A DNA stretch of 64,000 bases from an uncultured Bacteroidales bacterium (GTDB taxonomy: Bacteria > Bacteroidota > Bacteroidia > Bacteroidales > UBA932): assembly GCA_944322815.1 (NCBI GenBank), contig CALUQB010000005.1:37450-101449 (forward strand), written 5' to 3'. How positions within the stretch are numbered: position 1 is the stretch's first letter; each line of letters opens with the position of its first letter. Both the position numbers and the translations under genes were made by a program. Below the pieces are notes generated by a model, which was not told where the DNA came from, made no database searches, and worked only from the letters and a program-made list of their open reading frames with translations. Below, piece after piece: positions 17,716-49,399 of the stretch.

Positions 17716-19182
17716 ATGGAAATCACGGTAGAAAATGCAGTGGCCAGGTTCCCTGAATTCAGATTCAGGGAACCTGTGTCATGGACCATGCAGCATGGCG
17801 AGAATTGGGCCGTCATCGGTCCCAACGGTGCCGGCAAGACGCTCTTCACGGAACTGATCCAGGGCAGCATAGCTCTGAAAGAGGGGCAGGTAAGGCACTT
17901 CGATGAGCATGGACATGAAGTCTCCGGAGGAATCAGGACTCTGGTATTCAGGGACATTTATTCTATGTCGGGGATACGGTCCATGTATTATCAGCAGAAG
18001 TGGAATTCCCAGGATGCAGCCGAATCTCCGTTGGCCTCGTCTCTCCTTGACGGCTTTCCGGAAGAAAGAAAGCGCGAATATTCCGCCCTTTTCGGCATAG
18101 ACGGACTTCTGGACAAGAGAGTCATATCCCTGTCCAGCGGAGAACTGAGGAAGTTCCTCATCACCCGGGCCCTTATGAGCGAACCTTCCGTCATCATACT
18201 TGACAATCCTTTCATCGGTCTTGATGAGGCTTCCAGGCATTCTCTCGATTCCATGCTTTCCGTTTTAGGAGACAGGAAAGGACTGCAGACCATACTGGTG
18301 CTCAGCCAGACTCGGGATATTCCGCTGTGGACGGACAAGATGCTCCCGGTCTGCGACAGAAAGGTCCTTCCTCCTGTAACCCGTGAGGAATTCTTTTCAA
18401 ACCAGGACCTCGTTTCAGGTCTTTTCACTGACCGGAATACAGGTCCAATAGTCTTTCCCGGCAGAGCCAGCTCGTCCGGAACTTCGTCCGTATGCAAGGG
18501 CGACTACGAATATGTGCTTCGCATGAAATCGGTGAAAGTGCGGTACGGAGGCAGGGACATCATCCGGGACGAAAACTGGGAAGTCCGGAAAGGGGAGTGC
18601 TGGGCCCTGCTCGGAGAAAACGGCTCCGGCAAGTCGACCCTCCTCAGCCTGGTCTGCGGGGACAATCCGCAGGCATACGCGAATGACATCACCCTTTTCG
18701 ACCGCAAAAGAGGTTCGGGAGAGAGCATCTGGGACATAAAGAAACGCATAGGCTATCTGAGTCCGGACATCCATACCTATTATCTGGAAGATATTCCGTG
18801 CATCAAGGTCGTAGCCAGCGGATTCTTCGATTCCATAGGCCTTTCAGGTGAATGTTCCGCCGGAGAGTATGAGACTGTCATGCAGTGGATGCGCCTGTTT
18901 CATGCCGAACATCTGGCAGAGCGGTCCTTTGTCCGGATTTCCTATGGAGAGCAGCGTCTGGTCCTGCTGGTCAGAGCCTTCGTGAAGTCACCGGAACTCA
19001 TGGTCCTGGATGAACCTCTGCATGGTCTTGATGCCGGAAAGAAAAGGCTGGCTACAGCCATTATCCGGGAATATTGTTCGGATCCCGGAATATCACTGAT
19101 ATATGTCACCCATTACATGGATGAAATCCCTGAATGCGTGACGGAATTCAAGTTCATGAAGCGTTCTCCATATCGGATATGA
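17716..19182 (+). CDS. ModF-like protein with two ABC ATPase domains
   Basis: 488 residues from ATG 17716. Two nucleotide-binding domains: Walker A GPNGAGKTLF (about 36) with LSSGELRKFLITRAL and VIILDNPFIGLDE, then GENGSGKSTLL (about 304) with ISYGEQRLVLLVRAF and LMVLDEPLHGLD. The first Walker B ends DNP rather than DEP, so its catalytic glutamate is replaced by Asn; the second is intact. The ABC signatures are SSGEL and SYGEQ. There are no membrane segments. The layout matches ModF/PhrA-like soluble duplicated ATPases of unclear function. It starts 22 bases after the ACT gene, probably the same operon. Confidence 0.85.
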   Translation: MEITVENAVARFPEFRFREPVSWTMQHGENWAVIGPNGAGKTLFTELIQGSIALKEGQVRHFDEHGHEVSGGIRTLVFRDIYSMSGIRSMYYQQKWNSQDAAESPLASSLLDGFPEERKREYSALFGIDGLLDKRVISLSSGELRKFLITRALMSEPSVIILDNPFIGLDEASRHSLDSMLSVLGDRKGLQTILVLSQTRDIPLWTDKMLPVCDRKVLPPVTREEFFSNQDLVSGLFTDRNTGPIVFPGRASSSGTSSVCKGDYEYVLRMKSVKVRYGGRDIIRDENWEVRKGECWALLGENGSGKSTLLSLVCGDNPQAYANDITLFDRKRGSGESIWDIKKRIGYLSPDIHTYYLEDIPCIKVVASGFFDSIGLSGECSAGEYETVMQWMRLFHAEHLAERSFVRISYGEQRLVLLVRAFVKSPELMVLDEPLHGLDAGKKRLATAIIREYCSDPGISLIYVTHYMDEIPECVTEFKFMKRSPYRI

Positions 19183-38970: not shown

Positions 38971-39008
38971 CGAGAGGGTGGGTCAAAAGGAGCTTTGACC
39001 CGCCCTCG
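38971..39008. repeat. Intergenic hairpin, locus 1
   Basis: AGGGTGGGTCAAA and TTTGACCCGCCCT-type arms form a long, nearly complete hairpin with one G:U pair and a small bulge around AGGAGC. It sits immediately beside the structured repeat and can act as a terminator for the lipoprotein gene. A similar hairpin lies at 49366-49399. Confidence 0.65.
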
Positions 39009-39074
39009 ATTCGCTTTCGACCCCTGTCAGGGGGGATCTCACTCCTTCCGGTCGCGGTCACTTCGTGACTTTTG
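39009..39074 (-). repeat. Structured dispersed intergenic element, copy A
   Basis: Read on the minus strand this matches the plus strand at 49151-49212 over about 63 positions, with some ten differences and one gap by eye. It holds two hairpins: GTCAC-GAA-GTGAC (39069-39057) and CCCCTG-A-CAGGGG. Both stems are kept in copy B by paired changes. Confidence 0.75.
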
Positions 39075-39110
39075 CCACAGTCTCGCATGTCTAAACGCAT
39101 GGCAAATAAA

Positions 39111-39142
39111 TTTGTTCTCCTCTTGGCTTCTTCGTATCTTTG
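39111..39142 (+). promoter_or_regulatory. Promoter of the M20 dipeptidase gene
   Basis: TTTG (39111-39114), 20-base spacer, TATCTTTG (39135-39142), 25 bases before the ATG. Full pattern match. Confidence 0.75.
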
Positions 39143-39166
39143 TAAGGATACGTCAGTATAATAGCC

Positions 39167-40513
39167 ATGAAAGAATACATCGAAGCGAACAAGAACAGAT
39201 TTCTCGAAGAATTATTCTCCCTGCTGCGGATACCGTCCGTCAGCTCACTTGAAGAACACAAACCAGACATGCTCCGCTGTGCGGAACGGCTTGTGGAACT
39301 CCTGAAAGAGGCAGGAGCCGACCATGCGGAAGTTTACCCTACCTCAGGCCATCCGGTCGTTTATGCCTCCAGAATCATTGATCCTTCATTATCCACCGTC
39401 CTCGTCTACGGCCACTACGATGTCCAGCCTGTAGATCCTGTAGAGCTATGGAATTCGGATCCTTTCCAGCCGGAAATCCGTGACGGAGCCATCTATGCCC
39501 GCGGGGCCAATGATGACAAGGGGCAGCTCTTCATGCATGTCAAGGCCTTCGAGTATCTGCAGAAGACAGGCCGGCTCAGGCATAATGTCAAATTCATCCT
39601 CGAGGGTGAGGAGGAAATAGGCAGCCCTTCCCTGGCCGAATGGGCTTCGGGTCATAAGGATCTGCTTAAAGCGGATATCATCCTCGTATCCGATACAACC
39701 ATGATATCGGAACAGGTTCCTTCCATCAACTGCGGCATGCGCGGCCTTTCCTATCTGGAAATAAAAGTCACCGGTCCTGACAAGGACCTCCATTCCGGAC
39801 ATTACGGCGGAGCCGTAGCAAATCCTGTCAATGTCCTCTGCGACATGATATCCTCTTTGATCGACGGGGACGGCCGCATCACGGTGAAAGGATTCTACGA
39901 TGATGTGGTGGAACTCTCTGCAGAAGACAGGGCCAAGCTCGCCAGGGCGCCGTTCGACCTCGAAGAGTACAAGAAATTTCTGAAAATCGCCGAAGTCAAG
40001 GGTGAAAAGGGCTATACTACGCTGGAACGGACAGGCATAAGGCCTTGTCTGGATGTAAACGGTATCTGGGGCGGCTATACAGGTGAAGGTGCCAAGACCG
40101 TGCTTCCGTCCGAAGCCCATGCGAAGATTTCGATGAGGCTTGTGCCGGATCAGGACAGTGAGAAAATCACGGAACTTGTAGAGAAGCACATACTCTCCAT
40201 CGCCCCGCCGTATGTCAGGGTAGAGGTGAAACGTCATCATGGAGGCAACGGCTTCCTGATTCCGATATCCTCTCCTGCATACCAGGCAGCATCCAGGGCC
40301 ATGACGGAAGTCTACGGAGTCGAACCTGTTCCGAGCAGGGGAGGCGGCAGCATTCCGATTCTCGCGGACCTGCAGAAAATACTGGGCATAGACCCGCTTC
40401 TGATGGGATTCGGTCTGGAGCGCGATACCATCCATTCTCCGAATGAAAGTTATCTGCTCAGCCAGTTTTTCAAAGGCATTGAAGCCATCATCCTTTTTTA
40501 CCGATATTACTAA
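39167..40513 (+). CDS. M20 family dipeptidase
   Basis: 448 residues. Metal ligands and catalytic groups of the M20/ArgE/CPG2 clan: GHYDVQPVD (His, Asp near residue 86-88), ARGANDDKGQL (bridging Asp), LEGEEEIGSPSL (catalytic Glu), VSDTTM (Asp), and C-terminal ERDTIHSPNESY (His). The dimerisation lid domain lies between. This matches carnosinase-like/PepV-unrelated dipeptidases widespread in Bacteroidota. Cytoplasmic, no signal peptide. pyrF follows after 11 bases. Confidence 0.93.
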   Translation: MKEYIEANKNRFLEELFSLLRIPSVSSLEEHKPDMLRCAERLVELLKEAGADHAEVYPTSGHPVVYASRIIDPSLSTVLVYGHYDVQPVDPVELWNSDPFQPEIRDGAIYARGANDDKGQLFMHVKAFEYLQKTGRLRHNVKFILEGEEEIGSPSLAEWASGHKDLLKADIILVSDTTMISEQVPSINCGMRGLSYLEIKVTGPDKDLHSGHYGGAVANPVNVLCDMISSLIDGDGRITVKGFYDDVVELSAEDRAKLARAPFDLEEYKKFLKIAEVKGEKGYTTLERTGIRPCLDVNGIWGGYTGEGAKTVLPSEAHAKISMRLVPDQDSEKITELVEKHILSIAPPYVRVEVKRHHGGNGFLIPISSPAYQAASRAMTEVYGVEPVPSRGGGSIPILADLQKILGIDPLLMGFGLERDTIHSPNESYLLSQFFKGIEAIILFYRYY

Positions 40514-40524
40514 TACAAACCGAT

Positions 40525-41367
40525 ATGAACAGAGAACAGTTATACAAGCAGATTCAGACTAAAAAAACGATGCTGTGCGTGGGTCTGGATGTGGACTATG
40601 CGAAGATGCCGGAGCATATAAAAGGCCTTGCCTCTTCCGAAATAGCCGTAAAGGGCCATCTTTTCGGCGGCAAGACACGCTCCATCATCGAGTTCAACAA
40701 AGCCATCATCGATGCCACGGCTCCGTATTGTGTGGCATACAAGCCGAATCTGGCATTCTACGAATGCTACGGTGTGGACGGTACCAGAGCACTGGAGGCC
40801 ACGGTGGACTACATACGTACCACATATCCGGATATTTTCCTCATAGCCGATGCCAAAAGGGGTGACATAGGAAATACGGCCAGGATGTATGCGAAGGCTT
40901 TCTTCGAGACCATGGACTTCGATGCCGTCACGCTTTCACCGTACATGGGACAGGACAGCATCCTTCCGTTCCTGGAATACAAGGACAAATGGGCGATAGT
41001 GCTGGCTCTGACATCGAATGCATCTGCGGTCCAGTACCAGCTGGCGGAGAAAGACGGGAAACCTCTGTACAGGGCAGTCATAGAAGACATGATGTCCATA
41101 TCCACTCCAGACAACATGATGTTTGTCGTAGGAGCGACCAAGGCAGAAAAACTCGCTGAAATCCGTTCATTCTGTCCGGACAATTTCCTGCTTGTCCCTG
41201 GCGTTGGCGCACAGGGCGGTTCGGCGGAAGAAGTGATGAAATACGGTGCCAATGACATGGGCGGTCTTCTCATCAATTCCTCACGCGGGGTCCTTTACGC
41301 AGACTCTACTCCGAATTTCGCCAAGGCGGCTGCCAAAGTGGCGTCCGAGACAGCGAGAATCCTGTAG
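40525..41367 (+). CDS. pyrF: Orotidine 5'-phosphate decarboxylase
   Basis: 280 residues, of the longer type (PyrF subfamily 2). LCVGLDVDYAKMP at the N terminus, KPNLAFYECYG, catalytic DAKRGDIGNTARMYAKAFF (about 109-127), and VPGVGAQGG (phosphate loop). It catalyses the last step of UMP synthesis. Likely co-transcribed with the dipeptidase gene. Confidence 0.95.
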   Translation: MNREQLYKQIQTKKTMLCVGLDVDYAKMPEHIKGLASSEIAVKGHLFGGKTRSIIEFNKAIIDATAPYCVAYKPNLAFYECYGVDGTRALEATVDYIRTTYPDIFLIADAKRGDIGNTARMYAKAFFETMDFDAVTLSPYMGQDSILPFLEYKDKWAIVLALTSNASAVQYQLAEKDGKPLYRAVIEDMMSISTPDNMMFVVGATKAEKLAEIRSFCPDNFLLVPGVGAQGGSAEEVMKYGANDMGGLLINSSRGVLYADSTPNFAKAAAKVASETARIL

Positions 41368-41373
41368 TCCCGG

Positions 41374-42216
41374 TCATTCTTCGAATCTGGAACGGATTCC
41401 TTTCGGAGTCAGCCCCGTATTGTCCTTGATGAATTTTGAAAAATGCGACGGGGTGGCGAATCCCAGCTCATAGCTGATCTGCTGGATCGTCATCCCGCTT
41501 GTTCTGAGCAGGTGTCTGGCCGCGGCCAGAGTATAGTCATCTATCCATGCGGAAGCGTTTCTGCCCGTAGTCTCCTTTATGACTACCGACAGGTATTTGG
41601 GGGTGATGTTCATCAGGGAGGCATAGTATTCTACCTTGCGGCTTGATCTGACATTCTGTTCTACAAGCCGTATGAACCTGCTTGCCATTTCTTCCTTGTG
41701 TCTGTCTTTGTTCCGCATGTTGTTTCCCGGTTCATGGAGCATGATGTTGCAGGCTTCGTAAAACAGGATATTCAGATAGTTCCGGATTATCTGCATTTTG
41801 AAGAAATTGTCCTCTTTCTTGATGAAGTTTTTAAGGTAACCGTGTATGTCACAGCACATTTTCATCTTTATTGAGTCGATTTCGTGCAGGGGCTGTTCGT
41901 GCAGAAGCCGCTGGAAGTATATCCTGATGACACCTTGGACCAGCTTGTCGAATAGAGTGTCGGATATCGCTATGATATGGACCTTGAAGTCCTCGCTTTT
42001 GTCCGTGTAGTAGAACGGTGTTCCTGCCCCGATGACTATAAAGGAATTTTTTGACAGAATATAGTCATTGAACCGGACATTGAATCTGGCCATTCCTTCA
42101 GTGCAAAGCATAATGATAATTGTCTTTGAGAAGAAAAACTTGTCAATAGACGACACTGGCTGGTTATATTCAATGTCTCCCGAATAATTGTCGTATATTC
42201 CGATGTGCTCTTCCAT
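41374..42216 (-). CDS. AraC-family transcriptional regulator
   Basis: 280 residues from the ATG at 42216 (MEEHIGIYDNYSGD); the open frame to 42342 adds a hydrophobic stretch encoded by AT-rich leader DNA and is unlikely to be translated. The N-terminal part is a cupin-like sensor region (FFFSKTIIIMLCTEGMARF..SFIVIGAGTPFYYT). The C-terminal ~100 residues hold two helix-turn-helix motifs: VEYYASLMNITPKYLSVVIKETTG and MTIQQISYELGFATPSHFSKFIKDNTG-TPKGIR. Divergent from the outer-membrane protein and nucleotidase genes, so these are its likely targets. Its codons are more AT-rich than those of pyrF. Confidence 0.9.
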   Translation of the reverse strand: MEEHIGIYDNYSGDIEYNQPVSSIDKFFFSKTIIIMLCTEGMARFNVRFNDYILSKNSFIVIGAGTPFYYTDKSEDFKVHIIAISDTLFDKLVQGVIRIYFQRLLHEQPLHEIDSIKMKMCCDIHGYLKNFIKKEDNFFKMQIIRNYLNILFYEACNIMLHEPGNNMRNKDRHKEEMASRFIRLVEQNVRSSRKVEYYASLMNITPKYLSVVIKETTGRNASAWIDDYTLAAARHLLRTSGMTIQQISYELGFATPSHFSKFIKDNTGLTPKGIRSRFEE

Positions 42217-42362
42217 TATCTGAAAAAATTTCCGTAAATATATTAAAAAAAGGAAAATTATGACAGAATCTGAGCTATGTGTTATAGATTTTCCGGAAAT
42301 TTTATGTAAACTTTGCATAGTCATTAGGACACACACATTCAATTCTAATATTTTCTTTTCAG

Positions 42363-42390
42363 GCAGGCTCAGGATTGTTCTTTAGCCTGC
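42363..42390. other. Hairpin in the divergent regulatory region
   Basis: GCAGGCT and AGCCTGC (7 bp) around a 14-base loop, upstream of the predicted promoter at 42419, followed on the plus strand by a T-rich run. It lies between divergent genes, so an operator or a structure in the AraC leader are both possible. The rest of 42217-42418 is AT-rich with no gene. Confidence 0.35.
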
Positions 42391-42418
42391 TTTCCTTTTG
42401 TTTTCAGCGGCCGATTAT

Positions 42419-42449
42419 TTTGAAGATTTCCTCCGATGTCTTAACTTTG
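42419..42449 (+). promoter_or_regulatory. Promoter of the outer-membrane protein / nucleotidase pair
   Basis: TTTG (42419-42422), 19-base spacer, TAACTTTG (42442-42449), 23 bases before ATG 42472. Confidence 0.7.
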
Positions 42450-42471
42450 TCTGCCTGATGATTGAAAAGAC

Positions 42472-43656
42472 ATGTACAGAATTATGAAATTGGCTTCAGC
42501 CGCAGTCTTGTTCGTGAATATTGCCGTGACGGCAGCTGCAGCCGGGCAGGGCAGGCAGCCATTGCCGGAACCGGCACCGGAAAATAGCGGTCCGGCAGAG
42601 TTTTCGCCGCGTCCGCATTTCGTCTATGATGTCGGTTTCGAGTTCAATTTCGACAACAGGGAGTATGGCGGAGGTGAATATTCTCCGTCCATGACAGTTC
42701 TCGGGGCGAGACTGACACCTTCGGTCGGAATCCGCATGGATGCTTCTCCAGCCTCCGTACATAGTCTCATGCTGGGAATCGATGTCATGAAGGATTTCGG
42801 ATCGGATGCGCGTACGGAAGATCTTTTCAGAGAACTGACATTCTATTACAAGTGGGAGAAGGATTTCGGCAGGACCGGCATGACTCTCACGGCAGGAGTA
42901 TTTCCACGCAGCGAAATGCGGGGCTCTTACTCCACAGCATTCTTCTCGGATTATGTCAGATTCTACGACCCGAACCTCGAAGGGCTCATACTCAGGTTTC
43001 GCAGGCCGTCTGCCGGATATGAGATAGGATGTGACTGGATGGGGCAGTACGGTGATACCAGGAGGGAGCGTTTCATGATATTTTCCAGCGGGGAAGCCCG
43101 TCTGGCTGACCGTATCCTCGTACTGGGCTATTCCGGCTACATGTACCATTATGCCGGCTCCCGTGAAGTCCGGGGCGTGGTGGACAATATCCTGCTGAAT
43201 CCGTATGTCGGGGCGGATCTGTCTGCGAGGACAGGCCTTCAGGACCTGAGTTTCCGGCTTGGCTGGCTTCAGTCCATGCAGAATGACAGGCGTAACATAG
43301 GCCGTTACGTTTTCCCTGCCGGAGGTGAATTCCATTTCAAAATCAGGAACTGGAATGTCAGCGTGGAAAACCGTCTGTTCTACGGCCGCGACCTGATGCC
43401 GTACTATGATTCATCAGATGCTGCCGGTCATGTGTACGCCGACGGACTTTATTTCGGGGATCCGTTCTACCATCTTCGCAGAGGAGGAGAGGATACGGGG
43501 ATCTATGACCGGCTTGAACTATGTTACGAGCCGCAAATAGCGGATTTTATCCGTCTCCGCATCTCTGCAGTCCTTCATTTCCACGGCAGCGGCTTTTCAG
43601 GCTGGCAGCAGATGGTATCGCTTCTTTTTGACCTCCCGGACTCGTGGAAAAAATGA
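42472..43656 (+). CDS. Putative outer-membrane beta-barrel protein, unknown function
   Basis: 394 residues; signal peptide with hydrophobic core SAAVLFVNIAVTAAAA (start may be ATG 42472 or 42484). A proline-rich linker (QPLPEPAPENSGPAEFSPRP) precedes amphipathic strands such as GFEFNFDNREYGGGEYSP, MTLTAGVFPRSEMRGSYS and FRLGWLQSMQNDRRNIGRY, and the chain ends VSLLFDLPDSWKK. The pattern suggests a 14-18 strand barrel. I do not recognise a named family. It begins a two-gene unit with the nucleotidase lipoprotein, so it could be a surface or porin-like partner for nucleotide-derived substrates; that is inference. Confidence 0.72.
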   Translation: MYRIMKLASAAVLFVNIAVTAAAAGQGRQPLPEPAPENSGPAEFSPRPHFVYDVGFEFNFDNREYGGGEYSPSMTVLGARLTPSVGIRMDASPASVHSLMLGIDVMKDFGSDARTEDLFRELTFYYKWEKDFGRTGMTLTAGVFPRSEMRGSYSTAFFSDYVRFYDPNLEGLILRFRRPSAGYEIGCDWMGQYGDTRRERFMIFSSGEARLADRILVLGYSGYMYHYAGSREVRGVVDNILLNPYVGADLSARTGLQDLSFRLGWLQSMQNDRRNIGRYVFPAGGEFHFKIRNWNVSVENRLFYGRDLMPYYDSSDAAGHVYADGLYFGDPFYHLRRGGEDTGIYDRLELCYEPQIADFIRLRISAVLHFHGSGFSGWQQMVSLLFDLPDSWKK

Positions 43657-43692
43657 TTTGCCCGCATGAAACCAGTTACAAATTCCAATACA

Positions 43693-45504
43693 ATGAGAAA
43701 ACATCTTTATCTTCTGTTCCTTCTGCCGGTCCTGCTTCTGTCATGCGGTCCGGAAGACGGGACTTACAGCTTCTGGATCTGTACCACGAATGACGTCCAC
43801 GGGCGGTATTTCGACTCTCTTTATGTAGACAGCGCCACGGCAGGCTCCCTTCTGGCAGTATCCGCGACTGTGGACAGTGTCAGGAAAGCCGTCGGACCGC
43901 AGAACCTTATCCTCGTCGATGTGGGAGACTGCGTCCAGGGTGACAATGCATCCTATTACTACAACTATGTCGACACCCTTTCACCGCATCTCTATGCACG
44001 CATGGTGGATTATATGGGCTATGACGCGGTAGTGGTGGGAAACCACGATATCGAAGCCGGACATCCTGTCTATGACAGGCTCGGGAAGGAACTCGGGTGT
44101 CCGCTGCTCGCGGCCAATGCAGTCAGGACTTCCGACGGGAAGCCGTATTTCCAGGACTATCTCGTGACAGTCAGGGAAGGATTCAGGATAGCCATCATCG
44201 GATTCACGAATCCGAACATAAAGAACTGGCTGTCTCCGGAACTCTGGAGCGGTATGGAATTCAAGTCCCTGATTCCTTATGTGCAGGAGTATGTGGACCA
44301 GGTCAGAAAGAGGGAGAAGCCCGATATCGTCATCGTGGCTGCCCATGTCGGCACAGGTCCGGGACTTGATCCTGAAGGGATCGCTGCAGTCAGAGGTCTT
44401 GAATCCGGCTCTTCAGACCGGGCACAGGCTGAGAAAGCCGGCTCGGCCAATATCGAAAGTCAGGGCAAGGCCTTGCTCCAGACCCTTGACGGCGTGGATT
44501 TCGTACTCTGCGCGCACGACCATTCTCCGGCTGTGATCCAGTCGGACTCCATTTGCCTGATAAATTCCGGCAGTCATTGCCGCAATGTCGGGTTCGGCCG
44601 TATCGACCTGACGGTCAATGACGGCAAGATCGTATCCAAGTCATGTTCTGCGTCTCTGATACCAGTCCGCAAGGACCATGTCGATACAGCCATGCGTTCG
44701 CTTTTCCGCCCGGACTATGAGGCTGTCAAGGCCTTTACCGTGAAGCCCGTAGGCAAACTGGAAATTCCTCTGGTGACCCGCGACTCATATACCGGGATGT
44801 CTCCGTACATAGACTTCATCCATTCCGTAAGTCTCGGCTGCGAGCCTGCGCAGATATCATTTGCCGCTCCTCTGACTTACGATGGCGTCATAGAGCCGGG
44901 AACCCTCGTGTACAACGATCTGTTCAAGATATATCCTTTCGAAAACCAGCTTTTCGTGGTCAGGATGACAGGGCGGGAGATCCGGAACTATCTTGAATAT
45001 TCGTATGATTCCTGGATCAATACTGTCTCCGGCCTTCCCGGCGAGCATCTGCTTAAAATCGAAAACAGACCTGATCCGAGGACCGGAAGCAGCAGGTGGT
45101 CCTTTACAGGAAGGGCTTATAATTTCGATTCGGCGGCCGGACTTGTCTACGATGTGGATGTGCGCAAGCCTAAGGGAGAACGGGTGATCATCAGATCGCT
45201 TGCCTCCGGAGAGACTTTCGATATGGACAGTACGTATTGCGTGGCCATGACGTCATACAGGGCCAGCGGCGGCGGAGGCATCATGAGGGAAGGTGCCGGC
45301 ATAGATACTGACCGGATAGACGAGAGGGTAGTGGCCAGGTATCCTGAAATCAGGGATATCATTTACGATGCCATACTTGAGGCAGGGACATTGACTTCCG
45401 GAAATATTTATGACCGGAATACCATGGGATACTGGTCATTCATCCCTTCCGAAATGGTCGGACCTCTTCTCGAAAAGGATATGGAACTCGTATTCGGAGA
45501 ATAG
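43693..45504 (+). CDS. 5'-nucleotidase / metallophosphatase lipoprotein (UshA/NT5E-like)
   Basis: 603 residues from ATG 43693; MRKHLYLLFLLPVLLLSC is a lipoprotein signal with Cys18, whereas the frame from 43666 adds nine residues before it. The calcineurin-like domain shows TTNDVHGRYF, VDVGDCVQGDN, GNHDIEAG, AAHVG and AHDHSP, a complete dimetal set. The C-terminal 5'-nucleotidase domain (about 350-560) has the substrate-binding segments GVIEPGTLVYNDLFKIYPFENQLFVVRMTG and ASGGGGIMREG. Anchored to a membrane, it would dephosphorylate external nucleotides. Follows the barrel gene by 36 bases. Confidence 0.92.
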   Translation: MRKHLYLLFLLPVLLLSCGPEDGTYSFWICTTNDVHGRYFDSLYVDSATAGSLLAVSATVDSVRKAVGPQNLILVDVGDCVQGDNASYYYNYVDTLSPHLYARMVDYMGYDAVVVGNHDIEAGHPVYDRLGKELGCPLLAANAVRTSDGKPYFQDYLVTVREGFRIAIIGFTNPNIKNWLSPELWSGMEFKSLIPYVQEYVDQVRKREKPDIVIVAAHVGTGPGLDPEGIAAVRGLESGSSDRAQAEKAGSANIESQGKALLQTLDGVDFVLCAHDHSPAVIQSDSICLINSGSHCRNVGFGRIDLTVNDGKIVSKSCSASLIPVRKDHVDTAMRSLFRPDYEAVKAFTVKPVGKLEIPLVTRDSYTGMSPYIDFIHSVSLGCEPAQISFAAPLTYDGVIEPGTLVYNDLFKIYPFENQLFVVRMTGREIRNYLEYSYDSWINTVSGLPGEHLLKIENRPDPRTGSSRWSFTGRAYNFDSAAGLVYDVDVRKPKGERVIIRSLASGETFDMDSTYCVAMTSYRASGGGGIMREGAGIDTDRIDERVVARYPEIRDIIYDAILEAGTLTSGNIYDRNTMGYWSFIPSEMVGPLLEKDMELVFGE

Positions 45505-45605
45505 TTGCCGTCCCGGTTGCGGTTTTCAGTGCCGTTTCCGGATGCTCTGATTCAAAAAACCGGAAAAATGATTTTAAATTTGTGCAAAATGTTTTGATTT
45601 TGTGT

Positions 45606-45642
45606 AAAGGCGGCATACTTCGTTTCGTGGTTTGCCGCCTTT
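45606..45642. terminator. Hairpin after the nucleotidase gene
   Basis: AAAGGCGGC (45606-45614) and GCCGCCTTT (45634-45642) form a perfect 9-bp stem. No long T run follows, so termination is only probable; it also sits 36 bases before the small-protein gene. Confidence 0.5.
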
Positions 45643-45678
45643 GTCTTATCTTGGTCAGATAATCAAAACACTAGAACT

Positions 45679-45849
45679 ATGACAAAATCAGACATCGGAT
45701 TTGACCGGGGGGAGGTAGGATACAGCGCCCCGGCATTCAGAATCATCAGCGTCAAGGCTGAAAAGGGTTTCGCATCTTCACCGGATCCGGAATATGACTG
45801 GACCGACGGTATCTTGAATGATGACGACTGGAATCATGTAGGGTATTGA
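45679..45849 (+). CDS. Small protein upstream of a surface lipoprotein, paralogue of 51030-51158
   Basis: 56 codons from ATG 45679: MTKSDIGFDRGEVGYSAPAFRI, then IISVKAEKGFASSPDPEY and an acidic, Trp-rich end (DWTDGILNDDDWNHVGY). No signal peptide. It shares the pattern Y-x-[AS]-P-x-x-R-x-x-x-V-K-x-E-x-GFA-x-S with the small protein at 51030-51158, and both are encoded just upstream of an MKK-lipoprotein gene (22 bases here). The family resembles the short acidic-tailed proteins scattered near surface-protein genes in Bacteroidales, whose function is unknown. A GGAGG run in codons 11-12 is not in start position. Confidence 0.7.
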   Translation: MTKSDIGFDRGEVGYSAPAFRIISVKAEKGFASSPDPEYDWTDGILNDDDWNHVGY

Positions 45850-45871
45850 TATTAAAGAAGGAGTTGTCATC

Positions 45872-48388
45872 ATGAAGAAAATGATTTTCGCTGGTCTTGC
45901 CCTCGGGCTCGTGACCATGGTTTCATGCCAGAAAGAACTCACGGAAAACAGTATCGGGACCGCTGTCCCTCAAATCACAAAGACCGTTTATGTCGAAGGC
46001 AACCGGTGGCTGCCTGATACCGGTACCAGGACTGCCTATACGCCCGGAACCGGTGTGGACTGGACAGGAAACGAGACTTTTGCCATTTACTACGGAGATC
46101 CTGACAAGGCTGCTACGGCTACGTCTGAAAACAAGTACATGCAGAAAGCTACCGACGTGACCGCTCTCGGCGGTGGAAAATATTCTTTCAAGCATGAGGA
46201 TCTGGGAATCAGTGCTTACGATTATTCCGTGATTGTGCCTGATATCGCTACGACAGGACTTCAGGGGGCCGGAAAGTCCGCTACATTCAAGCTCTCTCCT
46301 GTACAGACTCCAGGGGCAAACACTTATGACCCGAACTATGACATCCTCTTCGGCCAGGGTGCATTCGGAGTGGCTCCTGCCGAGGAACTTGAAATAACCA
46401 GATTCAAGAGGGTGACTGCCCCTCTGCGTCTGAGCCTTTCCGACGGAGCAGGTGTCATAGGTGACGAGAAAATCCATGCCGCTACCATCAGCTTTTCCCA
46501 GGCTGCTGCCGGTCAGAACGGCTTTGCCGGAACGCTGTATCTGAATTTCGGCTACGAATATGAGGACTGCAAGGTGAACAGTTTCACAGCTCCGTCAAGT
46601 TCCGTGACGGCGGTATATGCCGAAGGACTTTCCAAGGACGGAAGCATCTGGCCTGTATGGTATTCTGTCCATCCTGCAACATTCGATGCAGGCGGTGAAC
46701 TTACCGTCACAGTGACTACAGGGACGAAAACCATATCCAGGACGGTGGTCATGGCTTCGGAGGCTTCCATACAGGCTGATATCCTGAATGATCTGTCTTT
46801 CGACATTTCAGGAGAAGGATATACTGAGGCAGAGTCTCTCTACTGGGACTTCACCGCTCTGGAAAGCCTTTCATCCCAGCTGACGGCAAGTGACGGAAAC
46901 CCGTATAACTGGGGCTTTGAAAGTTGTCAGATATGGAACGGAAATGATGCTTCAGGCATTCTCCCATCTTCGCTCAGGGCAAATGCCAATGACGGTCAGA
47001 TCACACTTCCGACCATAGCAGGCAAGCAGATTTCGAAGATCAGGCTTTATGCCCATCCTAATAATACCACATCGGACAATACCATATCTCTGAATGGCGC
47101 TGCCGGACTCAATTTCAACAGTTATGCGGTCAATACGGATACGGGAAACAGCGGTGTACTCGAAATCACAGTGCCGGAAGACCAGTACGGCCAGCCTTTG
47201 ATCCTGACTGCCGGAAGCAAATTCGCTGCATTTGACGGTATTGCCCTTGAATTTATCGAAGGGGCAGAGCTTCCGGAAGCCGATGAAAATGACTATTACG
47301 ATCTCTTCACTAAAGGATATGATATAGAAATCAACGGTGAGGTTTATAATAATGGTTCCTATACGGCGAGATTGATTAATATTGCTGATCTGACAGCACA
47401 GGATATCAATGCTGATGCAATAACTAATGGAATATTGTTTATCGATTCTGAGGGGCAGACGGAAGTAAAGGTCTTTACCAAAGAGGAGTCGGTGATGACT
47501 CCTGGGAATGCCCAGAGTGTTATTTTGATTGGGCGCTATAAAAATACACAGCCTGAAATGCAGTTCTTCTCCCAATATAAATTACGTGGGACAGGGGAGT
47601 CTACTACTGTCTTCAAAAATCTCCATATTGTTGCCGGCCACAATACTTCGTTGGTAAACAGCGAAACGGGATACCCTGGTACTAATTTGATAGTGGAAGA
47701 CTGTACGATTGATGCGACTGCTACCAGATATGTATTCTATGATGCAGCTAATGATGGTTCGTATGGCAGTATATGTATCAACAATAGTATAGTTGAGTTG
47801 AATTCAGAGGCAACGAACAATCCAAGTGTCATCGCTTTGTCAACGAATGAAAAGAAAACTGTATATGGTCCTGATATGGCAGTTACTATGACCAATTCTG
47901 TGGTTTATGCTGCAAGCCCTGTCCAGGCATTCATAGTAAATCTTGGCGATGGAAAACCAGAGCATGACATTTTTGATGGTTACAATGCAAATCTGAATGT
48001 GTCAGGTAATACATTCTACAATATTTGGCAGCCGAATATTCTCGTCAGAGGCCAGGTGTTCCGGAATTTTACGGTTGACATGAATGTTGCGAGCTATAAC
48101 ACATCGGAAGTCGTTGCAAAACCTTCCAATTTGGCCTGTGTGTATAAATCAGCAGAGACGTCCAGCATTTCTGGAAACTATTTGTTCACTGACGCGGAAG
48201 CAGGTAAACAGTGGAATATAGTTCATAGCAACTCTATTGTAAAAGCAGGCGAAGGGAATTCAAGGAATCCGGAGACTAATCCATATCAGTCAGAAAATAT
48301 CGAGACCGGTTACTTCCCGATCAACACTTCGGTAGTGACAAACGGAGCCGGAGCAGACTATGATACGAAATACTGGATACGGAAATGA
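45872..48388 (+). CDS. Large surface lipoprotein: fimbrillin-like region plus beta-helix domain
   Basis: 838 residues. Lipobox LVTMVSC (Cys19), MKK start. Residues about 35-320 resemble fimbrillin/Mfa-like beta-sandwich proteins (RTAYTPGTGVDWTGNETFAIYYG, ITRFKRVTAPLRLSLSD). About 325-455 is a second beta domain (YWDFTALESLSSQLTASDG...). About 465-800 is repetitive and beta-helix-like (FKNLHIVAGHNTSLV, LIVEDCTIDATATRYVFYDA, NVSGNTFYNIW), as in DUF4957/DUF5123 proteins near polysaccharide loci. No catalytic residues are evident. DNA from about 47330 to 48290 is clearly more AT-rich, with different codon choice than the first half. Preceded by the small protein gene. Confidence 0.78.
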   Translation: MKKMIFAGLALGLVTMVSCQKELTENSIGTAVPQITKTVYVEGNRWLPDTGTRTAYTPGTGVDWTGNETFAIYYGDPDKAATATSENKYMQKATDVTALGGGKYSFKHEDLGISAYDYSVIVPDIATTGLQGAGKSATFKLSPVQTPGANTYDPNYDILFGQGAFGVAPAEELEITRFKRVTAPLRLSLSDGAGVIGDEKIHAATISFSQAAAGQNGFAGTLYLNFGYEYEDCKVNSFTAPSSSVTAVYAEGLSKDGSIWPVWYSVHPATFDAGGELTVTVTTGTKTISRTVVMASEASIQADILNDLSFDISGEGYTEAESLYWDFTALESLSSQLTASDGNPYNWGFESCQIWNGNDASGILPSSLRANANDGQITLPTIAGKQISKIRLYAHPNNTTSDNTISLNGAAGLNFNSYAVNTDTGNSGVLEITVPEDQYGQPLILTAGSKFAAFDGIALEFIEGAELPEADENDYYDLFTKGYDIEINGEVYNNGSYTARLINIADLTAQDINADAITNGILFIDSEGQTEVKVFTKEESVMTPGNAQSVILIGRYKNTQPEMQFFSQYKLRGTGESTTVFKNLHIVAGHNTSLVNSETGYPGTNLIVEDCTIDATATRYVFYDAANDGSYGSICINNSIVELNSEATNNPSVIALSTNEKKTVYGPDMAVTMTNSVVYAASPVQAFIVNLGDGKPEHDIFDGYNANLNVSGNTFYNIWQPNILVRGQVFRNFTVDMNVASYNTSEVVAKPSNLACVYKSAETSSISGNYLFTDAEAGKQWNIVHSNSIVKAGEGNSRNPETNPYQSENIETGYFPINTSVVTNGAGADYDTKYWIRK

Positions 48389-48455
48389 TTTGCATTAATT
48401 CAGTTATTGTTGAGATGAATAAGATTCTTTTGCATTAGTTTAACGTGCTTATGTG

Positions 48456-48508
48456 CAGGGGCTGCAGTGACCGGAGTGATCCGGATATCCGCAGCCCCTG
48501 TATTTTAT
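48456..48508 (+). terminator. Terminator after the mosaic lipoprotein gene
   Basis: CAGGGGCTGC (48456-48465) pairs with GCAGCCCCTG (48491-48500), with an inner CCGGA-GTGA-TCCGG hairpin, followed by TATTTTAT. It lies 68 bases after the stop. Confidence 0.75.
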
Positions 48509-48585
48509 GCAGGATATGGCATTAAGTCAAGACTTTGCGACACGGCTCTTTCATTTAGGGAAGTAGAAAGGCTATAGAGACCCTT

Positions 48586-48617
48586 ACCCGGTTCTACTGA
48601 GAGCCGGGTATTTTTTT
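48586..48617 (+). terminator. Second terminator in the intergenic scar
   Basis: ACCCGG (48586-48591) and CCGGGT (48604-48609), then seven T (48611-48617). No gene precedes it closely; it may be the tail of a lost gene or of an unannotated RNA beginning after 48510. Confidence 0.6.
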
Positions 48618-48760
48618 GTGTTGTATCACTGCTGTCCGGAGAAATTTTACCATAAAGTAAGTTGTACGACAGAACCCGTCTCCGGAACACTAACGGGGAC
48701 TGTCGGCTGATTAAAAAGATCCCGGATGTCCGTCCTCTGGAAGAGGACCTGCCCGATTGA
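48618..48760. other. Non-coding stretch before the gltA remnant
   Basis: Contains inverted repeats TCCGGAGA/TCTCCGGA and GTCCTCT-GGA-AGAGGAC but no supported gene. Possibly part of the rearrangement junction. Confidence 0.4.
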
Positions 48761-49105
48761 GTTAGATATAGAATGGAGCTTGGAGAGCCTGACGAGAGCG
48801 GAAGACGGTCTCCTGTGCCTGTGCCGGGATCCGAATTCGAAGTGGAGACGGATGCCGTAATCATGGCGTTGGGGACATCCCCGAATCCTCTGATTGCCAG
48901 GACTACCGCAGGTCTGGAGACGAACAGGAGAGGATGTATTGTGGCTGACGAGGACGGGGTGACTTCACGTCCCGGCGTGTTTGCCGGCGGCGATGCGGTC
49001 ACGGGTGCCGCTACGGTCATTCTGGCTATGGGCGCCGGGCGCAAGGCAGCCGCGGCGATAGACAGGTATATCAGAGGAACAGTTTCCGGAGACGGAACTT
49101 GCTGA
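48761..49105 (+). pseudogene. Remnant of NADPH-dependent glutamate synthase (GltA-type), C-terminal fragment
   Basis: About 110 codons: RMELGEPDESGRRSPVPVPG, then VETDAVIMALGTSPNPLIA, TTAGLETNRRGCIVADEDG, GVFAGGDAVTGAATVILAMG and AGRKAAAAIDRYI. This is the last quarter of the FAD/NAD(P)-binding flavoprotein family that includes homotetrameric glutamate synthase (GltA) and SudA/NfnL; the GGDAVTGAATVILAMGAGRKAA segment is the FAD-binding end. An in-frame stop (TGA 48758) cuts homology abruptly, and no N-terminal part exists in any frame nearby. The C terminus looks natural. I read it as a deletion remnant, since it could not bind NADPH or accept the Fe-S domain. Confidence 0.75.
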
Positions 49106-49148
49106 AGACAAGACGACCCGGCGGATGCCGGATGAAATGAAGGAGACT

Positions 49149-49212
49149 GGGTCAAAAGTCCCGAAGGGACCGCGACTGGAGGAAGCGAGATCCCCCTAAT
49201 AGGGGTCGTGAG
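49149..49212 (+). repeat. Structured dispersed intergenic element, copy B
   Basis: Matches copy A (39009-39074, minus). Hairpins GTCCC-GAA-GGGAC (49158-49170) and CCCCTA-A-TAGGGG. Relative to copy A, stem positions changed in complementary pairs. The 10-mer GGGTCAAAAG begins here (49149) and also occurs at 38980 and 63628. From 49213 to 49365 only unassigned sequence is seen. Confidence 0.75.
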
Positions 49213-49365
49213 CGGTTTATGAGAATGTCCGGTGGACATTCGAAAGCGAGCAGAGGGGGTTAGGATGGGTCCAGGTTAAACTGAAGTTTTTCCATATCCT
49301 CACCTCGGCAATTTGTGCAGGCACAATTGCACTCTGTTCGTCAATGGTTTCGAAGAAAGACGTTT

Positions 49366-49399
49366 GAGGGTGACCAAAAGTCACTTTTGAGTCACCCTC
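49366..49399. repeat. Intergenic hairpin, locus 2
   Basis: GAGGGTGAC / GTCACCCTC with an inner CAAAAG-TCA-CTTTTG, almost fully paired over 34 bases. It resembles the hairpin at 38971-39008 and may terminate the leftward PUL transcript that ends at 49455. Confidence 0.7.

Follow-up and report, generated by a model that had tools for sequence, protein, structure and literature searches.

Several known families of small bacterial repeats resemble element Y, the subject of this work, two copies of which (A and B) lie in a stretch of 64,000 nucleotides from an uncultured Bacteroidales bacterium (contig CALUQB010000005.1, positions 37,450 to 101,449; hereafter the window). Like Y, the BOX elements of Streptococcus pneumoniae are described, in PMC3049150, as composite, modular and hairpin-rich, with optional internal modules, and as clustering with other repeats under a supposed mobilization in trans. 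The Neisserial Intergenic Mosaic Elements (NIMEs) resemble Y in forming intergenic mosaics where short palindromes alternate with repeats of other kinds (PMC3049150 and PMC3733652). The repetitive extragenic palindromic (REP) sequences and bacterial interspersed mosaic elements (BIMEs), with their REP-associated tyrosine transposases (RAYTs), are likewise palindromic, mostly extragenic and present in many copies (PMC3733652 and PMC6006769). SPRITE of S. pneumoniae is, like Y, dispersed and equipped with a hairpin that resembles a terminator (PMC3049150), and Bacteroidales themselves hold BrickBuilt, an intergenic miniature inverted-repeat transposable element (MITE) of Porphyromonas gingivalis with small inverted ends and 19 copies in one genome (PMC4596501). 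The open-access literature that we searched names no repeat like Y.

Element Y is short, dispersed and non-coding, and is variably present at orthologous sites. On balance, and with somewhat better than even confidence, we read it as a non-autonomous interspersed repeat of the BOX/NIME kind, a chain of hairpins that has spread between genes and carries a terminator-like hairpin, hp5. The canonical unit is ∼140 bp long and comprises five hairpins in the order hp1 (GTCACGAAGTGAC), hp1.5 (CGCGACTGGAAGGAGCG), hp2 (CCCCCTAATAGGGGG) and, after a spacer, hp4 (GTCTTTCGAAGAAAGAC) and the terminal hp5 (GAGGGTGACC...GGTCACCCTC), between a left end GGGTGGGTCAAAAG and a right end CTTTTGGTCACCC. With ∼140 bp or more, Y is bigger than the extent given in an earlier note on the window, which had compared copies A and B. 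Its optional modules are a further hairpin, hp3, a hairpin-holding insert of ∼85 bases in the hp2 loop and a linker near hp4. Among 70 scorable copies, 36 are canonical and 34 have added modules or no hp4; nine further copies, cut by locus ends, fall outside these 70. Other hairpins occupy the usual slots of Y at L024 and L025, at L009 a Y lies inside another repeat, X, where it replaces one X hairpin, and at a single locus hp3 is present in the window genome (L003) and absent from the corresponding locus of another genome (L142; loci 95–99% identical). The copies of Y appear to exchange modules.

In the window genome (G000; 2.68 Mb, 64 contigs), a BLAST search with copy B as query found 37 places at E ≤ 1, and a covariance model trained on 25 copies, all of other genomes (alignment A4), gave 38 matches at E ≤ 1 and 32 at E ≤ 1e-3, nine of the latter overlapping repeat X, which shares hairpins with Y. 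An exact hp1 pattern had 67 matches in 65 stretches, in ten uncultured Bacteroidales metagenome-assembled genomes (MAGs) beyond the window genome; carriers of Y total eleven genomes, all from uncultured Bacteroidales. The further copies that the earlier note had proposed to look for, in the genome and in its relatives, thus exist. BLAST at E ≤ 1e-3 against 36 genomes of the same genus and 24 of the same order found no Y outside the window genome. An order-wide search with the hp1 pattern, one mismatch allowed, found it in 2 of 393 genomes, namely the window genome and G071 of the same genus, whose matches lie at the same positions as in G062 from the set of ten MAGs, so that G071 and G062 are presumably the same genome. 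Y is thus patchy within at least that genus. Phages and plasmids held no match to one canonical copy used as query, and viral contigs gave 0 matches to a pattern covering the A-T form of hp1 only. Several repeat copies are located near the ends of contigs of the window genome (C54, C52, C33, C11, C35 and C22); the repeats may therefore interrupt the assembly, and the true number of copies may be higher than counted.

Comparison of orthologous sites showed that at the locus of copy A the genome G061 has the same two genes without Y, and that at the locus of copy B the element is present in G063, the same convergent gene pair having a plain terminator-like hairpin in G061 and G068. Eight further sites were compared between two genomes, of which one concerns X and seven concern Y, whose presence there differs between the two; among these seven, L008 is a partial copy and one site faces a remnant made up of hp5 plus hp4. 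A clean target duplication was seen at none of the eight, compared side by side.

Copies A and B consist of the following parts.

38974..39082, minus strand: copy A of element Y, which lacks hp3 and hp4 (sequence reading; covariance model match 38982-39082, E 1.8e-11)
39057..39069, minus strand: hp1 of copy A, GTCAC-GAA-GTGAC (sequence reading, pair statistics)
39040..39056, minus strand: hp1.5 of copy A, CGC..GTG, with one G-U pair (sequence; homologous hairpin in the pair counts)
39021..39033, minus strand: hp2 of copy A, CCCCTGACAGGGG (sequence reading)
38974..39007, minus strand: terminal hairpin hp5 of copy A (terminator-like scan, 14 pairs)
48773..49105, plus strand: 3' fragment (333 bases) of a glutamate synthase gene (gltA/gltD type, TIGR01316 family), directly upstream of copy B
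49146..49399, plus strand: copy B of element Y, including the hp3 module and an inserted linker (model match 49145-49240, E 1.1e-18)
49158..49170, plus strand: hp1 of copy B, GTCCC-GAA-GGGAC (sequence, pair statistics)
49171..49187, plus strand: hp1.5 of copy B (sequence, pair statistics)
49193..49205, plus strand: hp2 of copy B, CCCCTAATAGGGG (sequence reading)
49223..49241, plus strand: optional module hairpin hp3 of copy B, GAATGTCC-GGT-GGACATTC (sequence reading)
49348..49361, plus strand: hp4 remnant of copy B (TTTCGAAGAAAGAC; sequence reading)
49366..49399, plus strand: terminal hairpin hp5 of copy B (sequence reading)

The two copies align over ∼63 positions (39009-39074, minus, and 49149-49212, plus), as had been claimed, and their likeness is far above chance; both are recovered by the model built from other genomes. 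The AGGGTG...CACCCT hairpin that was reported to accompany them is indeed found at both loci and is hp5, a part of Y itself. One more model match in the window (18345-18434, E 0.012) falls within a long open reading frame (ORF) and is taken as chance. Copy A is flanked by a gene encoding a PKD-like domain and by an M20 peptidase gene, its hp5 at 34 bases from the stop codon of the upstream plus-strand gene, and copy B by the glutamate synthase fragment and a SusE/F-like gene. The proposed association with surface-protein genes was viewed at these two loci only.

The glutamate synthase fragment, with stops upstream, is closest to the glutamate synthase gene of G063, another species (84%), and is 77% identical to an intact glutamate synthase gene elsewhere in the window genome; from about position 49100 onward the identity to G063 climbs to 98–100%. 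This pattern suggests that the locus of copy B, gene end and Y together, is of G063-like origin and that a recent exchange took place over Y.

Copies of Y favour the 3' ends of genes. Gene neighbours were scored for 77 copies, 60 of them with both flanks, with ORFs called by a simple longest-ORF rule. These 60 comprise 26 in convergent, 28 in tandem and six in divergent settings; one lies inside an ORF, so that the intergenic location claimed by the earlier note as exclusive is nearly so, a Y-like chain also breaking one Rpn gene (L079). The convergent setting is found for 26 of 60 copies, compared with 41 of 285 background pairs of the same loci (Fisher p 2e-6) or 16 of 113 if only background gaps of at least 60 bases are counted (p 4e-5), and the divergent setting for 6 of 60 vs 37 of 113 such gaps (p 8e-4). 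The side of hp5, a G+C-rich hairpin, points to a gene 3' end in 42 of the 60 copies. A terminator scan, whose total was 21 vs 17.8 in shuffles, picks up hp5 of copy A. In the first 10 bases outside 43 copies, the frequency of A is 0.55 on the left and that of T is 0.41 on the right, compared with ∼0.22–0.30 further out, a bias that is compatible with a bidirectional terminator without demonstrating one. The window genome holds 20 hp5-like GGGTGA..TCACCC palindromes (a reversed-pattern control, 0), of which five are in clear Y copies and the others stand beside X or weaker matches or alone, at least one appearing by eye to be coding.

The earlier note had drawn attention to two changes between copies A and B as keeping the stems paired. 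The change in hp1, from GTCAC/GTGAC to GTCCC/GGGAC, is real and compensated. In the 67 exact-pattern copies, the variable pair is A..T in 39, C..G in 28 and mixed in 0, under a pattern that permitted mismatched combinations at this pair and fixed the other hp1 pairs. The change in hp2, from CCCCTG/CAGGGG to CCCCTA/TAGGGG, was misjudged: the changed bases flank a single central A (CCCCTG-A-CAGGGG, CCCCTA-A-TAGGGG) and, with one base between them, cannot pair, so that the change keeps the sequence palindromic yet is no evidence that the stem is paired. Two copies (L105 and L122) have A..C at these positions, and hp2 has no double change in the pair statistics of the body hairpins. The variable pair of hp1.5 is U-A in 14, C-G in ten and U-G in one of 25 rows. 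The body, with its four hairpins, has 18 double-changed cells, compared with 6.3 in shuffles (0/500 as high); alignment A3 holds 33 of 47 distinct units, 14 with inserted modules being left out, and A4 holds 25 of 33 rows, identical rows being left out. The strongest case of covariation in Y is hp5, in which 8 of 14 pairs are double-changed (27 cells), 94.7% of the cells are paired and 0/500 shuffles are as high on all five measures. Its 34 rows (alignment A5) are 33 of the 35 listed, L136 and window:40858-40892 having been dropped as unrelated, with window:49364-49398 added. Stems thus stay paired through double changes in hp1, hp1.5 and, most strongly, hp5, and not through the change in hp2.

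If Y is an interspersed repeat of the BOX/NIME kind, an activity acting in trans would make its copies, and recombination among them would reshuffle their parts. The hp5 hairpin, like hairpins found elsewhere in the window genome without Y, might act as a putative bidirectional intrinsic terminator, in which case Y would be tolerated at gene ends. Template switching in replication is a described source of compensatory changes (PMC8794818), and switching from arm to arm can yield double changes, so that covariation alone is no proof of a selected RNA. Arm-to-arm switching together with selection against read-through could keep the hairpins self-complementary while their letters drift. A stronger version appears to us rather doubtful: that Y propagates as a structure more than as a sequence, snap-back synthesis, at insertion or afterwards, copying one hairpin arm onto its partner and so giving each copy a private, near-perfect hp5, while hairpins are swapped slot for slot (as at L024, L025 and L009) and their order is kept.

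A number of observations weigh against the interspersed-repeat reading as a whole or in its parts. To our knowledge, there is no autonomous partner of Y. Only 2 of 43 copies share at least five edge bases in their flanks, with a shuffled mean of 2.0 and exact ends that are uncertain, and many flanks are only 75–80% identical between species, which blurs the empty sites. The state of hp1 is almost fixed per genome (22/22 A-T in CASEOO, 23/23 C-G in CALVDP); the 67 copies are thus not 67 events, and the hp1 double change may represent one or two. As for unpaired changes in stems, which the earlier note had named as telling against its proposal, a broken hp1 pair is carried by copies L013 and L019 of the window genome. 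Double-changed pairs in the body number only 2 of 23, not above shuffles (385/500 as high), and one inner position of hp5 is unpaired in 10 of 33 scored copies. Nor does hp5 have a clear U-run on its inner side, and the deficit of divergent settings is not significant over all background gaps (p 0.13). When palindromes were examined for extension into host flanks, 764 of 5000 permutations were as high (45 rows, of which 43 distinct, after removal of 29 copies that lacked an end or landmark), and insertion of Y into pre-existing terminator palindromes, a candidate seen by eye in L086, L107, L126 and copy B, failed this permutation test.

The earlier suggestion of a REP-like or MITE-like dispersed element survives in its general sense, through the many copies, the presence in other species, the optional modules and the compensated changes, but neither as a strict REP nor as a strict MITE; for a recombination site, also proposed, no evidence was found. 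The best surviving alternative, though in our judgement an unlikely one, is that Y is a classical MITE whose left and right ends serve as terminal inverted repeats for a DDE transposase acting in trans. The two ends are indeed inverted relatives of each other, but the right end belongs to the local hairpin hp5, which is palindromic by itself, and the 'inverted repeat' may be just that hairpin. The example of X, for which such a mechanism seems to hold, lends this alternative some colour. X measures ∼207 or 291 bp between ACGTGAGTTCGATGAA and TTCGTCGAACTGACGT, with inverted ends of ∼16 bp, is found at L030, L029, L017, L018 and L064–L075, and in its long form has hp2 and hp4 in common with Y. 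In 20 of 29 copies its flanks share 5–7 bases, a number that averaged 2.9 over 1000 shuffles and reached 10 at most. X therefore behaves like a MITE, and its activity is not tied to Y. At its assumed ends Y is without such duplication, as stated above, and no insertion sequence with Y-like ends is known, no search aimed at one having been made.

That Y works as a structured RNA, in regulation or in stabilizing the 3' ends of mRNAs, with its fold under selection, we regard as improbable. This explanation can draw on the double changes in hp1 and hp1.5, on the unaided prediction of hp1, hp1.5 and hp4 by RNAalifold and on the folding of five chosen canonical copies, which is better than that of shuffles (z −3.0 to −5.4). 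Against it, RNAalifold pairs the C-run of hp2 with the next G-run instead, folding is weak in copy A (z −1.6 and −2.2) and in copy B (z −0.65), the element freely gains modules and swaps hairpins for others, and the stem closing the body from hp1 to hp2 (UGGGUC/GGGUCCA) is weak, a control slid by one column nearly equalling its covariation. At gathering scores, Rfam gave only tRNAs in the window and five loci, with no family matching Y.

Mobilization of Y as a REP/BIME-type repeat by a RAYT (tnpA-REP, an HUH single-strand transposase) is in our view very unlikely. A RAYT-like transposase of the kind that the earlier note had advised looking for does exist, as one Y1_Tnp gene in the window genome, and the Bacteroidetes subclass of tnpA-REP has atypical flanking structures (PMC6006769). 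However, 0 of 5 RAYT-type loci (2.5–3.2 kb) hold Y or X at E ≤ 0.1. Other repeats flank these genes, namely hairpin arrays with a 52-bp period in G000, G061, G062 and G064 and other short tandem repeats in G069. Only 5 of the 11 Y carriers have such a gene, and the remaining six, Y-rich G063 included, give no Y1_Tnp match, although MAGs may be incomplete. Nor does Y have a GTAG/CGTC tag outside a stem.

The 52-bp-period arrays at the RAYT genes have the same period and a different sequence in each genome (L031, 5-104 and 1260-1692; L203, L204 and L206). Rpn (PF12784) genes were considered as another candidate mobilizer; of their seven matches in the window genome, three are close to X or Y and four to a 52-bp array, with one in both groups; at L077, L078, L081 and L082 an Rpn gene adjoins an array ∼75–87% similar to that of the RAYT gene. 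At L079 (1501-2512, contig C22 of the window genome) the Rpn gene is broken by the Y-like hairpin chain, with ∼47 gene bases gone there, and also by X, where the two gene matches overlap by 7 bases; L076 has an intact paralogue.

That Y consists of ordinary look-alike intrinsic terminators, derived from reused terminator sequences and not mobile, is highly improbable. In its favour, hp5-like hairpins occur without Y and orthologous sites have plain terminator-like hairpins, but hp1–hp4 are near-identical over ∼100 bases at unrelated loci in several species, which terminators alone do not explain and which contradicts this idea for that part.

Stem covariation is usually taken as proof of a selected RNA. 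In Y, covariation is found in a repeat with terminator-like hairpins, a setting in which template switching during replication could give rise to it in the absence of selection. With dozens of copies spread over eleven genomes, selection and template switching could be separated. Among the non-coding elements of uncultured Bacteroidales, which have been little studied, Y is also an additional repeat that carries a putative terminator.

Compared with the known systems, Y differs from REP sequences (GTAG/CGTC super-families), which are single palindromes of 20–40 bp, in its ∼140 bp and five hairpins. REP sequences have an unpaired GTAG/CGTC at one end, whereas by eye Y has none (a reverse-strand CGTC at hp4 has its GTC paired), and they flank their RAYT gene, which Y does not (0/5 loci). 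BrickBuilt holds a 23-base tandem repeat, whereas Y holds distinct hairpins, and SPRITE is a single hairpin with a long T-rich tract and no modular body. The neisserial mosaic elements differ from Y in that the latter is a chain of hairpins in fixed order and does not have the CGTC tag of dRS3. BOX elements belong to another phylum, and the terminator-like hairpin at the end of Y differs in sequence among copies. Y nevertheless appears closest in layout to BOX and to the neisserial mosaic elements, the likeness claimed to BOX being one of layout only, and it seems to be a new representative of a class of small repeats already known from bacteria.

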